This document shows, piece by piece, positions 8,099 to 34,023 of a stretch of 34,324 nt of DNA (position 1 is its first letter; the number at the start of each line of letters is the position of its first letter). A model generated the notes under the pieces. The model made no database searches and had not been told where the DNA came from. It worked only from the letters and a program-made list of their open reading frames with translations. The position numbers and the translations under genes are program-made. The DNA lies in IMG/VR virus record IMGVR_UViG_3300043436_002588, positions 1 through 34,324 of that record; one strand, written 5' to 3'. The stretch comes from a virus.

Positions 8099-9142
8099 TT
8101 AATTTTGTTTTTGTAATTCTAATAAAAATTTCTCTTGCAAGTTTTTAGGCTCTGCAACCTCTGTATGAATTGGAGTAGCTTTAGTTAAAATAACTTCTGC
8201 TTCTTCTTTTTTCATTTCAGCTTTAAACCCTTCTAATTGTGCAGCTACAGCTTTAGCAATTTCGCCAACATACGCTTGCATAATTTCATTTACTTTAGCT
8301 TCGACAGAGTCATCAGCCATTTCTACCTCAGCTTCCGCCTCAGGTTGTTCAGCTTCTTTTTCAGTAAGTTCAGCAACTTTGCCTTCTGTAACTACGACCA
8401 TCATTTCGTCGATTTCGTAAGTTCCAGCAGTAAGTGCTTCCGTCATAGCCTCATCAGCAAAAACCATTGTATCAACCGCTAACGCTTCCCCTTCAAAGAA
8501 AACCGCTTGCTCGTCGATAGTCATAGATTTTCCTAACTTAACTTGTGTTTGATTAAGAGAGGCAAAGCCTTCTTTAATCGCTGTTAAAATAGTTTCTAAA
8601 TTCATATCTGTTTTTAAATTTACATTCTCTTCTAATTCAAAAGCTCCATCAATTGATACGCCTTTGATTTCACCCGCCTCTATTTTAGCCATAACCTCAT
8701 CATCATCAACTCTAAAAATAGTAAACCACGTGCCAATAGGTTGATTAAATCCTTTCATTACGCTTTTATCGTGTACATCATCTTCTTTTATCCAACTTTC
8801 AACAAAGGTTACACCCTCTAATTTTAGATTTATATCGTGTTCAAGTGTACTTTCGTTTTGAAAACCACGCTTTTGGAACTCTTGTTGTGCTAATTGTATG
8901 GTTTCTTTTGGAAAAACAATATTAAAAGCGTTGCCATTATCGTCAATTCTTAATATTTTTTGGTCAGGAATAAGTACAGGAGTCATAAATAAACGTTTCT
9001 CTTTGTCTATTTCTGCTAATTTTACTTCATAATCCTTTGACATTTGCACAAAATACTCTTCAATAGCTGGGTCTTCAACTAAAGAAATCGCATAAACGCC
9101 CTTGTTTTTATTTGGATTGAATCTAATTACGTATGTGTCCAT
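8099..9142 (-). CDS. Capsid maturation protease fused to scaffold domain (XkdF-like)
   Basis: 347 aa. Residues 1-165 resemble the XkdF-like serine protease family (Peptidase_S78_2): AISLVEDPAIEEYFVQM, an EHDINLKLEGVTFVESWI segment carrying the likely catalytic His, and GEIKGVSIDGAFE carrying the likely catalytic Ser. Residues about 175-347 are acidic and Glu/Ala-rich, as expected for an internal scaffold that is cleaved after assembly. It directly precedes the capsid gene. No minus-strand TAnnTTTG box was found upstream, where the plus-strand lipoprotein unit lies, so its promoter is unclear. Confidence 0.8.
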   Translation of the reverse strand: MDTYVIRFNPNKNKGVYAISLVEDPAIEEYFVQMSKDYEVKLAEIDKEKRLFMTPVLIPDQKILRIDDNGNAFNIVFPKETIQLAQQEFQKRGFQNESTLEHDINLKLEGVTFVESWIKEDDVHDKSVMKGFNQPIGTWFTIFRVDDDEVMAKIEAGEIKGVSIDGAFELEENVNLKTDMNLETILTAIKEGFASLNQTQVKLGKSMTIDEQAVFFEGEALAVDTMVFADEAMTEALTAGTYEIDEMMVVVTEGKVAELTEKEAEQPEAEAEVEMADDSVEAKVNEIMQAYVGEIAKAVAAQLEGFKAEMKKEEAEVILTKATPIHTEVAEPKNLQEKFLLELQKQN

Positions 9143-9195
9143 ATTTATTTAACGAAAAAAAAAGTTTATTTTACATATTGAATTGTAAAAATGTT

Positions 9196-9203
9196 TATAT
9201 TTG
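9196..9203 (+). promoter_or_regulatory. TATATTTG promoter of the lipoprotein unit
   Basis: An exact TATATTTG box lies on the plus strand; the expected transcript start (about 9209) coincides with the first base of stem S1 of the leader. A TTG occurs 15 bases upstream (9178-9180), shorter than the usual -33 spacing. Confidence 0.65.
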
Positions 9204-9208
9204 TGCCA

Positions 9209-9266
9209 TCGCTACAACTAAAAATATTAATCCCTGACATTTGTAGCGAGTGTTGGGGATTTTTTT
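9209..9266 (+). promoter_or_regulatory. Interleaved two-stem leader RNA (pseudoknot/terminator), member A
   Basis: S1 is TCGCTACAA (9209-9217) with TTGTAGCGA (9241-9249), 9 bp. S2 is AATCCC (9229-9234) with GGGATT (9256-9261), followed by a T-run. The order S1-S2-S1'-S2' is that of an H-type pseudoknot, or of two competing hairpins of which the second is an intrinsic terminator. The ATG is at 9279. The linker before S2 reads AAAAATATTA, shared with members B-D. Confidence 0.7.
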
Positions 9267-9278
9267 AAACTATTTAAT

Positions 9279-9659
9279 ATGAAAAAAGTATTATTAATTT
9301 TAGGGTTGTCTATTTCGTTATTATCTTGTAATGATTACCAAAGACAACAAAGCCAATTAGATGCAGAAAGTGAAGGTAAATCTATTTTACTAAAAGCTGA
9401 AAGCGAAAAGAAAGCCGACATTGAACAAGCAAAGGCTAACTACGAATCTGCAAAATTAGACGCTCTTACAAAAATTGAAAAAGCAAAAGCAGAAAGCCAA
9501 TCTATTTTAATGAAAGCCGAAAGTCAAGCAAAAGCAAACAGATTATTAAACGAATCAATTACACCTGAAATTTTAGAGTTTAATAAAATAAATCGTTGGA
9601 ATGGTAAATTACCAACTACTACTTTAGGTAATCAAGGTGCAATTATAAATTTAAAATAA
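9279..9659 (+). CDS. Phage lipoprotein with a prohibitin/SPFH-like C-terminal tail
   Basis: 126 aa. The signal peptide MKKVLLILGLSISLLSC has a lipobox with Cys-17. Residues 25-95 are an Ala/Glu/Lys-rich helix with an internal repeat (AESEGKSILLKAES and AESQSILMKAES). The end, LNESITPEILEFNKINRWNGKLPTTT (read here in pieces), matches the characteristic tail of bacterial prohibitin-family (SPFH) proteins: ITPEILEF, then NRWNGKLP. The SPFH domain itself is absent. It lies opposite in strand to the surrounding late genes, with its own promoter, leader and terminator. An inferred role is membrane-level modification of the host, such as superinfection exclusion or interference with host SPFH complexes. 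Confidence 0.8.
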   Translation: MKKVLLILGLSISLLSCNDYQRQQSQLDAESEGKSILLKAESEKKADIEQAKANYESAKLDALTKIEKAKAESQSILMKAESQAKANRLLNESITPEILEFNKINRWNGKLPTTTLGNQGAIINLK

Positions 9660-9754
9660 TGAAAATACTTGTTCTTACATTAGTAGGTATTCCTTTATTG
9701 ATTATTTTCTATTTAGGAATAATTCGTTTAATAAAAGAGTTTTTTAAAAAATAA
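9659..9754 (+). CDS. 31-aa single-span membrane protein
   Basis: MKILVLTLVGIPLLIIFYLG then a basic end (RLIKEFFKK): one membrane helix with a positive, presumably cytoplasmic tail. The ATG shares a base with the lipoprotein stop (TAATG), so the two are translated together and perhaps act together at the envelope. Too short for ordinary ORF callers. No family recognised. Confidence 0.65.
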   Translation: MKILVLTLVGIPLLIIFYLGIIRLIKEFFKK

Positions 9755-9759
9755 TTTAT

Positions 9760-9767
9760 TATATTTG
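9760..9767 (+). promoter_or_regulatory. TATATTTG box before a short untranslated region
   Basis: An exact TATATTTG box on the plus strand, 5 bases past the 31-aa gene. The next plus-strand feature is only the terminator at 9815-9845, so it would give an RNA of about 70 bases with no sizeable ORF. It could be a small RNA promoter or a chance match in AT-rich DNA. Confidence 0.4.
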
Positions 9768-9814
9768 TGCTTTGAGTTTTTTCATAGTTTGAATTTTTTA
9801 GTTATTAATCATTA

Positions 9815-9845
9815 AAGCCACTTACCTGAGAGAGTGGCTTTTTTA
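9815..9845 (+). terminator. Terminator of the lipoprotein unit
   Basis: AAGCCACT (9815-9822) pairs with AGTGGCTT (9833-9840), 8 bp, followed by six T. It ends plus-strand transcription immediately before the convergent tape-measure stop at 9846; on the minus strand the stem is intact but the U-run is weak, so it may work partly in both directions. Confidence 0.8.
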
Positions 9846-11921
9846 TTATCCTAAACTTGCGTTACTTACTATATTCCTATCTAAACTTTGTTGAGTAGTT
9901 ACATTGTTTGCGACTACATACGCTTGTATTGGTGGTTGCGTTCCTCCTAAAGTATTGGCTATTTGATTTACACCGCTATTACCTACTACATTGAAAGTTG
10001 GTGCAGCAGTAGTACCACCACCTCCTGAAATATTACTAGGTACTGAACCACCGCCACCACCGCCACCTTTTGGAGTTTTAACAGATAAAATCTTTTTAAC
10101 TTGTAATAAACCTGCTACACCTGTTACAATAGCTTGAGCGATTGCATAACCTGGCACAGGAATGTTTGAAAACGCTGCTAATTGTCCAGCTATTGCTGTA
10201 TATGTAGAAATTGTTGCAGATGCTACAGCGGCAGCCTTTCCTGCAGCTGTGCTTTCCCCAAGTTCATCAGCAGCTAAACTTAAACCACCACTAATGGCAT
10301 CCAACATTAATAATTTTGCCTTTTTTTCTTTTTCGGCTATTTCAATTCTTGCATCTGCATATTGCTTTTCTAATTCTTTTCTTTGCTCTTCTGATAATGT
10401 TTTATCTTGCAATAAAGTATTTTCTCTTTCTGTTAAAATTTCTCTTTGCTCCTCAAAAGTTAAAGCTTCAAATTCTTTATTAAGTTCAAGTTCCTCTAAT
10501 TTCTTTTCTTGGTCTTTTGCTTTTTTATCTTCTGCTTCTTTATCGTCTTTTGCTTTTTGCTCTTTTACACGATTACGCTCTTGCTCATCATACTTTAAAT
10601 TAATTTCGTTTTGTTCGTTTAATATTTGTAATTCAAGCTCGGTAGTATCTTTTCCGTATTTCTTTAGAAGTGCTAATTTAGCATCATTCTTAATTTTTAA
10701 ATCGTTAAGCTCTTTTTCACGTTCAGTAAGCACGCTATCGTCGTTTGCCTTAACAGCCTCTTGCTGAATCTTTTTAATTTCTTCAAGGTCTTTCTTTTGT
10801 TGGTCTCTTAACTCTTGACGTGCTTTGTCCCTTTCTTCTTTTCTTCTCTTTTCGTTTTCTTTTGCTGAACTTACTTCGGCTGTTTTGATTTCAACTAAAT
10901 GACGATTTTGTATATCTTTCTTTTCGTCAAGTGCTTTTCTTACATCTTGATTTTGTTTATTAAATTGCTTAATACTTTCGTTTGCTGTTTCTTGTTGCTT
11001 TTTAATAACCTCTTCATCTGCACCCGCAGCTTTTAAACTCGCAAGAGTATTTAAGTTCTTTTGATATGTATTTTCTGCAATTGCTCTCTGTGATTTTTCG
11101 TAAGCAATTTTTTCGTCAATTAATTTCAATTCTAATTTACGAATAGCCTCCGCACTCATTCCACTTGCTTTTGCCATTGCAAGCTCTTGCTTTTGCTTTT
11201 TATCGAATTGCTCCGAATTTCTTTCAAGTGTTTTAGTTTGATTTTCAAGTGCTACTCTATTTTGTTCAACTGCTGCGGAGTTTTGTTTTGCAGCCTCTGA
11301 ATTATCTATAAAGTATTTTGTCAAAGCTACACCCGCTGCTATAAGAGCGACAACTGCTGCTATAATTGCACCGATTGGATTCGCAGCTTGTGCTGCATTC
11401 CATAACCATTGCCCCGCTGTAATTGCTTTTTGAACTATTGTATATTGTTGAGCAACCGCAGCCAAACGCTTGAAGTCTTTAGCACTATCTGCAATACCTG
11501 ACAAACTTTGAGAGAGTGCCATAGCGGATTGAACTTTTAATAAAGTTTCTTGTGCAGCTTCTCCCTCAACTCCTAACAAACCTAAAGATGATTGATAACC
11601 TTGTATAGCATTTGCACCCGCAGCAATAGCACCAGTAGCAGCTTGAAACTTTGCTCCTGGGTCGAACAATTTAGCTGTTTCTTGTGCCTCTGCTATTTGG
11701 TCTTTTAAAGTTGCTACTTTTTTAGCAGCGTTTAAAGCAGCCTCCGAATAGTCCCCGAATTCTTTTTGAGCGTTTACTAATTCAATAGTAGCTTCTTTAA
11801 TTTGAGTCTTTAAACTCGCAGTACTTTTGTCTGTTTGTTGTACCGCCTTGTTTAAGTTGTCAAGTCCGCCTAACGCTTTTAATTCGTCAACATCTATTTC
11901 TATTACTTTTGTAATCGCCAT
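9846..11921 (-). CDS. Tail tape measure protein
   Basis: 691 aa. Coiled coil at about 20-90; a hydrophobic segment around 178-200 (GAIIAAVVALIAAGVALT); a very long charged coiled coil at about 210-545, rich in Lys/Glu/Gln; a second hydrophobic block near 555-615; then a Gly run and low-complexity end. This architecture is typical of tape measures. By the rule of about 0.15 nm per residue the tail would be near 100 nm, fitting a siphovirus. It overlaps the 46-aa gene upstream by 19 bases. It is followed by the convergent plus-strand lipoprotein unit. Confidence 0.85.
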   Translation of the reverse strand: MAITKVIEIDVDELKALGGLDNLNKAVQQTDKSTASLKTQIKEATIELVNAQKEFGDYSEAALNAAKKVATLKDQIAEAQETAKLFDPGAKFQAATGAIAAGANAIQGYQSSLGLLGVEGEAAQETLLKVQSAMALSQSLSGIADSAKDFKRLAAVAQQYTIVQKAITAGQWLWNAAQAANPIGAIIAAVVALIAAGVALTKYFIDNSEAAKQNSAAVEQNRVALENQTKTLERNSEQFDKKQKQELAMAKASGMSAEAIRKLELKLIDEKIAYEKSQRAIAENTYQKNLNTLASLKAAGADEEVIKKQQETANESIKQFNKQNQDVRKALDEKKDIQNRHLVEIKTAEVSSAKENEKRRKEERDKARQELRDQQKKDLEEIKKIQQEAVKANDDSVLTEREKELNDLKIKNDAKLALLKKYGKDTTELELQILNEQNEINLKYDEQERNRVKEQKAKDDKEAEDKKAKDQEKKLEELELNKEFEALTFEEQREILTERENTLLQDKTLSEEQRKELEKQYADARIEIAEKEKKAKLLMLDAISGGLSLAADELGESTAAGKAAAVASATISTYTAIAGQLAAFSNIPVPGYAIAQAIVTGVAGLLQVKKILSVKTPKGGGGGGGSVPSNISGGGGTTAAPTFNVVGNSGVNQIANTLGGTQPPIQAYVVANNVTTQQSLDRNIVSNASLG

Positions 11922-33464: not shown

Positions 33465-33500
33465 AAAAAACCACCTATAATAAGGTGGTTTTATTTTTTA
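33465..33500. terminator. Bidirectional terminator between convergent genes
   Basis: ACCACCTATAATAAGGTGGT forms a 7-bp stem with T-rich sides on both strands (TTTTATTTTTT plus, TTTTTTG minus). The stop codon of the minus-strand gene (33475-33477) is within the hairpin. It ends the late minus-strand transcript after the circular junction and the plus-strand operon. Confidence 0.85.
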
Positions 33501-34023
33501 TCCAATTCAATACAAAGAGCAGAACAAATAGTATTCCAATAAGCCACATAAACCGATTTGCGACTATTTTAATAGTTTCTGAATAGTCAACCTCTTTATC
33601 TTTTTTTTCTTCTTTAAAATCAACGTTTTGCTTTTCCTTAATTACTTCTTTAGAATTGTTATAAATAACCCTTGTATTGTAGATTGTATCTTTTCCTAAA
33701 AGAATAGGTTTGTCCAAATTAACAGGCTCTAAAGTAAACGAGTTACTAAACTTTGTTATATCGGTTTGTGTTTCACTTTTAACTTCCGTTTCTGAACTTG
33801 ACTTTTTAACGCTTCCGCAAGAAAATAAAGTTAAAACTAAACAACCTAAAATTAATTTTGCTAAAGAGCTTTTAGATTCATCGCCTAAAAAAAACTCACA
33901 TTTCCCATCTTTATAAGGTACTTCTGTAAAATAACTTTGCCACATTCCGTCTATTGCTTTATATCTTTTGCAATTATCTTTTAAAGGGCAATTAAAACCA
34001 CTACATTTTGTTATATCACTCAT
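33475..34023 (-). CDS. Cys-rich head fused to a u-spanin-like lipoprotein
   Basis: 182 aa. Residues 1-50 carry Cys-7, 12, 18 and 42 (KCSGFNCPLKDNCKRY, DGKCEFF), a known small phage Cys-rich type. Residues 54-69 are a lipoprotein signal ending in LFSC (Cys-69), and residues about 153-173 are a membrane span (MWLIGILFVLLFVLNWI). A lipoprotein signal plus C-terminal transmembrane helix is the layout of unimolecular spanins such as phage T1 gp11, which fuse the two membranes at lysis. The signal is internal and no in-frame ATG precedes it, so this may be two genes joined by a one-base change. Confidence 0.65.
   Translation of the reverse strand: MSDITKCSGFNCPLKDNCKRYKAIDGMWQSYFTEVPYKDGKCEFFLGDESKSSLAKLILGCLVLTLFSCGSVKKSSSETEVKSETQTDITKFSNSFTLEPVNLDKPILLGKDTIYNTRVIYNNSKEVIKEKQNVDFKEEKKDKEVDYSETIKIVANRFMWLIGILFVLLFVLNWIKNKTTLL

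Follow-up and report, generated by a model that had tools for sequence, protein, structure and literature searches.

The window, i.e., the whole 34.3-kb stretch of DNA analysed here, is a contig of a virus whose host is a Flavobacterium-type bacterium. Its late genes are located on the minus strand. A gene for a lipoprotein and a gene for a small membrane peptide were found on the plus strand, between the tape-measure and protease genes, and the two ORFs share one base (TAATG) at their junction. The following features were identified in this region (window positions):

8099–9142 and 9846–11921, minus strand: XkdF-type protease and tape measure, respectively; the other late genes around the pair are those for terminase, tail proteins, capsid and portal
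near 9176–9184, plus strand: TTG-rich −33 region, read from the sequence
9196–9203, plus strand: Bacteroidota-type −7 box TATATTTG, read from the sequence, of a putative promoter
9208–9265, plus strand: leader RNA (model R1), predicted 5′ end of the mRNA
9210–9217, plus strand: leader arm CGCTACAA, invariant, able to pair with TTGTAGCG (antiterminator-like competing stem or pseudoknot stem)
9229–9261, plus strand: leader hairpin AATCCC...GGGGATT followed by a U-run; 15 bp, covarying, terminator-like, including TTGTAGCG at 9241–9248
9279–9659, plus strand: lipoprotein ORF, 126 aa, with lipobox LLSC and Cys17 at 9327–9329
9393–9641, plus strand: match to the C-terminus of PHROG_200 (residues 39–121), coiled coil and tail NESITPEILEFNKINRWNGKLP
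9659–9754, plus strand: membrane peptide ORF MKILVLTLVGIPLLIIFYLGIIRLIKEFFKK, 31 aa, single TM helix, conserved GIP motif
9760–9767, plus strand: second TATATTTG
9814–9841, plus strand: intrinsic terminator-like hairpin AAAGCCAC...GTGGCTTT, also present in relatives with an empty slot, with a varying loop

The initial annotation had described the pair as a unit transcribed against the late genes, with a promoter, leader and terminator of its own. The strands agree with this, as the pair lies on the plus strand and all the named surrounding late genes on the minus strand, and the −7 box, the leader hairpin and the terminator are all in place. The leader hairpin, itself terminator-like, is situated between the promoter and the gene; the initial annotation mentions neither this nor the exchangeable slot, the sharing of the leader with unrelated cargo and the two tail types described below. 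The product had been read as a lipoprotein, and the lipobox supports this: S16–C17 is invariant in the relatives (32/32 rows of alignment A3). Only 17 residues lead up to the lipid anchor, and the coil runs from there on. Elsewhere in the window, ORF 33475–34023 (minus strand) has a short cysteine-rich N-terminal part, to which a u-spanin-like second half (phrog_5885), with a lipobox and a TM helix at its C-terminus, is joined in frame.

It had also been claimed that the protein ends like SPFH proteins while having no SPFH domain, and this was confirmed. The match to PHROG_200 (379 positions) had E = 5e-15 and was confined to positions 267–352, and Pfam gave no match to Band_7 (the SPFH domain) in the lipoprotein. 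Because coiled coils are compositionally biased and raise similarity scores, three additional homology tests were run. A profile of the truncated family, compared with all PDB sequences, placed prohibitin-2 at the top (human PHB2 structures, E = 8.8e-6 and 4.8e-5), followed by QmcA, prohibitin and HflC. A profile built solely from truncated phage proteins was searched against 397 whole Flavobacteriaceae genomes; it found a prophage copy, one 140-aa cousin and, in the remaining 8/8 matches, a protein of ~275 aa aligned to model positions 51–131 of 134. Three of these eight proteins were read in sequence and were prohibitins, and the prohibitin orthologue in genome G002 is a Band_7 protein. With a 58-residue profile of the tail only, a protein of 270–290 aa was found in about half of 149 genomes, aligned over the first 32 tail positions, and the match in G002 was again its Band_7 protein. 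Finally, hhalign profile–profile alignment with the Flavobacteriaceae host prohibitin gave a probability of 92.8% and E = 4e-7 over 77 columns reaching the C-terminus. By these comparisons, the lipoprotein has the coiled coil and tail found at the C-terminus of prohibitins. Judged by these profiles, the similarity to the SPFH C-terminus is beyond chance, and among the non-phage proteins of host genomes, the best relative of the lipoprotein is the prohibitin of the host. The C-terminal 77–80 residues of this ~275-aa protein are homologous to the lipoprotein, which, unlike it, has neither an N-terminal TM helix nor an SPFH domain.

The AlphaFold model of the lipoprotein consists of a helix at residues 2–93, a helix at 96–107 and strands at 114–116 and 122–124 (mean pLDDT 79, below 50 from residue 116 onward). 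The single-chain model had no fold match in Foldseek or VIA-align, its one-helix shape being too simple to be informative. Searches in Pfam, NCBIfam and PADLOC yielded nothing informative.

Recurrence in other phages had been set beforehand as one of the points on which the interpretation could fail, and truncated SPFH tails were found in many phages. Close relatives (80–94% identity) occur in nine IMG/VR contigs, with both ORFs kept. The wider scan yielded truncated proteins in 40 viral and four bacterial loci, and 35 of these, from Bacteroidota phages and prophages and encoding 29 distinct proteins, were examined in detail. All 35 lack the SPFH domain and keep only the coiled coil and the tail. 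The proteins are 119–146 aa long and share an invariant start, SC.(D/E)..R.Q...D....G...L. Conservation within the family is highest in the N-terminal part around the lipid anchor (SC.D..R.Q...DA...GK), and not in the tail.

The association with a small membrane peptide, noted in the initial annotation for the window, is a constant of the family. A TM peptide of 31–36 aa adjoins the lipoprotein gene in 35/35 loci (directly after it in 28, directly before it in 7), nearly always with a GIP/GVP-type motif. As a control, 280 further ORFs (≥100 aa) of these loci were inspected, and an unrelated TM peptide directly followed just one of them. This conservation indicates that the TM peptide is an obligate partner of the lipoprotein.

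Two tail types were distinguished, A (WNGKLP...INLK) and B (N..YLKYL...IPTEA.LPI), the window protein being of type A. Sister phages carry A or B in the same slot (the window versus L020 and L039) with a nearly identical signal peptide and partner, which makes the tail an exchangeable part. A search with a profile of tail B only did not support the idea that Flavobacteriaceae prohibitins usually end in this tail: host prohibitin was not found at E ≤ 0.01, which means that tail B has either drifted or has another partner.

Copies in bacterial genomes (L101–L104) are probably prophages. Distant cousins of 119–171 aa, often TM-anchored, were found in Pseudomonadota phages, cyanophages and an IncC plasmid, and in the two phage groups they too keep no more of an SPFH protein than coil and tail; the cousins include those of Salmonella phage SPN1S, cyanophage S-PM2, Klebsiella and Erwinia jumbo phages, and Sphingobium, Achromobacter and Agrobacterium phages. 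The gene of SPN1S is likewise antisense and lies between late genes. It is annotated there (L189, 3085–3279) as a 64-aa ‘protease’ antisense to the terminase, while the frame upstream is open and contains a lipobox-like CMAGC; with an upstream start, the protein is probably ~125 aa long. On IncC plasmid pN069_1 (L193, 1405–1878), a TM-anchored cousin is situated beside RHS and barstar genes, and plasmids of the IncC type are conjugative. A 140-aa open frame on the minus strand of a Flavobacteriaceae genome (L215) encodes a TM-anchored tail protein without the SPFH domain (LPIYNVWQQEMAGKAE...), which suggests a cellular or prophage origin of the family.

Among known families, PHROG_11227 (138 positions) likewise comprises a short coiled coil and an SPFH-type tail without the SPFH domain. 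Members with tail B matched it at 1e-18 to 1e-30 and the window protein at 4.8e-8 over positions 37–105 of 138. The window protein shows the coil and tail match and the length (~120–170 aa) that define this family, and on these grounds the lipoprotein is assigned to PHROG_11227. The label ‘protease’ given to PHROG_11227 is misleading, as a catalytic basis is not visible in the sequence. Unlike many TM-anchored cousins in this family, the window protein combines tail type A with a lipobox and a separate TM peptide. The full-length phage SPFH/band-7 lipoproteins of PHROG_200 (phiCbK, phage K, FL-1) have the same coil and a WNGxLP-type tail but retain the SPFH domain (in FL-1, Band_7 was matched at E = 3e-14), and those read are 264–314 aa long. 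Such full-length proteins have been discussed for Bruynoghevirus and CSP3, with no function assigned (PMC8540360, PMC10269572). In the open-licence literature, we found only full-length phage SPFH proteins and no short SPFH-tail ones, nor any account of the leader, the module without SPFH domain or the membrane peptide obligately paired with it. The exclusion lipoproteins Ltp, Llp and Cor resemble the window protein in being phage-encoded lipoproteins expressed as separate units, but have no significant sequence similarity to it.

The position of the pair between tape measure and protease is an exchangeable slot. In ten relatives (L030–L032, L034–L038, L040, L041), with a protease 66–99% identical, the slot is empty; L031 is a contig end that shows the slot region only. 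The empty slot consists of the −7 box, 50–80 nt and then the same terminator, and a single TATATTTG is kept. In the window, a 10-base direct repeat ATATTTGTGC at 9197–9206 and 9761–9770 brackets the cassette. Other cargo behind the same leader includes an 80-aa ORF (L022), a ParB-like protein of 249 aa (L028; phrog_12305, 1.9e-29) and a membrane protein of 158 aa (L033; phrog_3054, 1.2e-20). Since relatives have the slot empty or filled with unrelated cargo, the pair is accessory cargo. With its own promoter and terminator, and its presence or absence among otherwise syntenic relatives, it qualifies as a phage moron. In L042 and L081, ORFs of 117 and 47 aa were seen as further cargo of the tape-measure/protease slot. 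The slot cargo of L022, L028, L033, L042 and L081 provides candidate host-interaction genes. It should be noted that, both at 9770–9845 of the window and in the empty-slot relatives (L030–L041), a −7 box and the terminator lie ~50–80 nt apart; this interval may encode a small RNA in all such phages.

The leader was found by a strict pattern in 26 IMG/VR contigs and additionally in L033/L090 and L135. It precedes about 15 different ORFs, and its gene contexts number at least five. One is the tape-measure/protease slot, where it is antisense in the window clade and sense in L094; elsewhere it follows the terminase gene, another tape measure (L097), a u-spanin-like gene (L098) or a tail gene (L135). 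Its carriers, including L085, L086, L087, L088, L093–L100 and L135, belong to several phage groups and have it ahead of many unrelated cargo ORFs. L083, L084, L089 and L091 were rejected as chance pattern matches. In L092, GC-rich genes unlike their neighbours start behind the leader, and this contig is possibly a chimeric assembly.

The hairpin of the leader covaries. Clean double changes were observed at three pairs (G-C/U-A/C-G, C-G/U-A/G-C and A-U/G-C), 92% of the alignment cells were paired versus 42–53% when the alignment was slid, and the covariation score was 0.274 versus 0.116 in shuffles. In L135, the hairpin arms are wholly different (16 pairs, z −3.6) around the same core, and the cargo is a lipoprotein of the same family. 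Upstream of the hairpin, CGCTACAA is complementary to TTGTAGCG within it, and their pairing excludes the upper part of the hairpin. CGCTACAA is invariant except for two G-U changes, so covariation is unable to test this pairing; as an exact 8-nt complement kept among otherwise different leaders, it is unlikely to be idle. A −7-like box lies within a few bases upstream of (A/T/C)TCGCTAC in every leader, which places the start of the RNA at or close to the CGCTACAA arm. In structure, then, the leader has a conserved terminator hairpin and a conserved, mutually exclusive antiterminator pairing. In the group located after the terminase gene, the U-run is displaced about 4–5 nt from the stem, which makes termination there less certain.

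In having a terminator hairpin and a mutually exclusive upstream arm in the interval between promoter and gene, the leader resembles intrinsic-terminator attenuators. It differs from them in lacking a recognised leader peptide, a known ligand motif and an Rfam match (the Rfam search gave sub-threshold noise only), in always preceding exchangeable accessory genes and in occurring in phage contigs only. When 84,980 genomes of bacteria and archaea were searched with the pattern, there were 0 matches. A covariance model searched against 299 Flavobacteriaceae genomes gave 10 weak matches, which were rejected as ordinary terminators without the paired CGCTAC/GTAGC core. By both searches, the leader was found solely in phage contigs, and we regard it as a candidate new RNA family.

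Based on the above results, we tentatively suggest the following as the most likely role of the accessory cassette among those considered, while regarding it as somewhat more doubtful than not. The lipid-anchored coiled coil with its cap-forming tail and the 31-aa inner-membrane peptide would act as a two-part periplasmic effector, in which the peptide keeps the lipoprotein at the inner membrane. Through its coiled coil and tail, the lipoprotein would pair with the prohibitin-type SPFH cage of the host. Lacking the membrane-ring (SPFH) domain, this subunit would open, cap or redirect the cage, and the altered cage would change the shielding of proteins from, or their delivery to, FtsH-type membrane proteolysis during infection. 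The leader would serve as an attenuator, with the terminator hairpin opposed by the 5′-terminal CGCTACAA arm, so that transcription reaches the gene only if the arm prevails. In prohibitin rings, neighbouring subunits contact each other most strongly through their coiled coils, and the top of the bell is stabilised by the C-terminal helices (PMC11991916). Since the strongest interface is kept alone in a predicted periplasmic protein, co-assembly with the host cage or capping of it would be expected. In this way, the pair would disturb a host membrane quality-control machine. The decoy for host SPFH/FtsH-type complexes guessed at in the initial annotation gains indirect support from the host prohibitin as best non-phage relative and from the retention of this interface. 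Against the cage model speak the coiled-coil bias of similarity scores, the absence of a Foldseek match, the failure of the tail B profile to find host prohibitin and the position of the most invariant residues around the lipid anchor. A wider reading is possible, although we lean further against it: the shared attenuator RNA, portable and conserved in structure, would mark slots of interchangeable genes in several unrelated groups of Bacteroidota phages, one cargo being a two-gene module whose prohibitin-cap protein serves as a dominant-negative subunit, with tails of two types swapped to match different SPFH cages of hosts.

The proposed effect on the host cage has to be weighed against superinfection exclusion, the other guess of the initial annotation, in which the envelope lipoprotein and the peptide would keep related phages from bringing in their DNA or using their receptor, without the involvement of host SPFH proteins. 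Lone antisense genes with their own promoter among late genes are frequently exclusion proteins, and the pair has this arrangement. The probable prophage copies in bacterial genomes fit this explanation, as does the precedent of the Ltp family of lipoprotein exclusion factors (PMC3952083). Matches to exclusion families in PHROG were obtained too (phrog_15667, E = 0.008, for L020; Cor, E = 0.37, for the window), but they are weak and limited to the signal peptide and coil. Furthermore, exclusion leaves the conserved SPFH-type tail unexplained, and SPN1S-type lysogens, whose phage has a family member, remain sensitive to phages with other receptors, which is relevant if the gene is expressed there (PMC3424200). 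We consider exclusion unlikely, yet worth serious attention.

Rather improbable, in our opinion, is a self-contained scaffold, in which the lipoprotein and the TM peptide self-assemble into a small phage-made SPFH-like cap that leaves the host SPFH proteins untouched and protects membrane proteins of the phage or stabilises an inner membrane under stress. The obligate TM peptide could stand in for the missing membrane part, and in other lineages, including L215, the same coil and tail have a built-in membrane anchor. However, without the SPFH domain such a structure would lack the membrane-proximal ring of known cages, and the similarity to host prohibitin would reflect inheritance only.

Small membrane toxins are of comparable size and have a single hydrophobic helix, and the 31-aa peptide resembles them in both respects. 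The peptide could thus be a toxin and the lipoprotein its antidote, with the overlap of their genes and a leader suggestive of tight control, an attenuator that keeps both off. This is very unlikely, as the prohibitin homology of the tail would be unexplained, a complex would explain the GIP motif and the constant pairing equally well, and the pair resides in many different contexts of phage genomes, not in a maintenance locus.

Least probable of all is a spanin-like lysis pair of an outer-membrane lipoprotein and an inner-membrane partner: a coiled-coil lipoprotein with a membrane peptide, a weak Rz-like match (phrog_5151, E = 0.004, for L020) and the L113 pair, which by eye comes after endolysin- and holin-like genes, speak for it, but the 31-aa partner is a single TM helix without the periplasmic domain of i-spanins (PMC6139136), the window has its own endolysin, holin-like membrane gene and u-spanin-fitting gene (33475–34023), its pair lies >7 kb from the amidase at 1394–1837, only L113 among the relatives looked lysis-adjacent, and the pair is found in many non-lysis contexts.

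To our knowledge, SPFH proteins are universal. If the pairing with the host cage is true, phage genes that encode only the cage-forming end together with a constant tiny partner would be a natural tool for dismantling SPFH cages and would tie phages to membrane proteolysis beyond lambda CIII. If the leader is an attenuator common to unrelated cargo, phages would use one regulatory adaptor for accessory genes, and it would provide a simple sequence handle to locate host-interaction genes in Bacteroidota phages.
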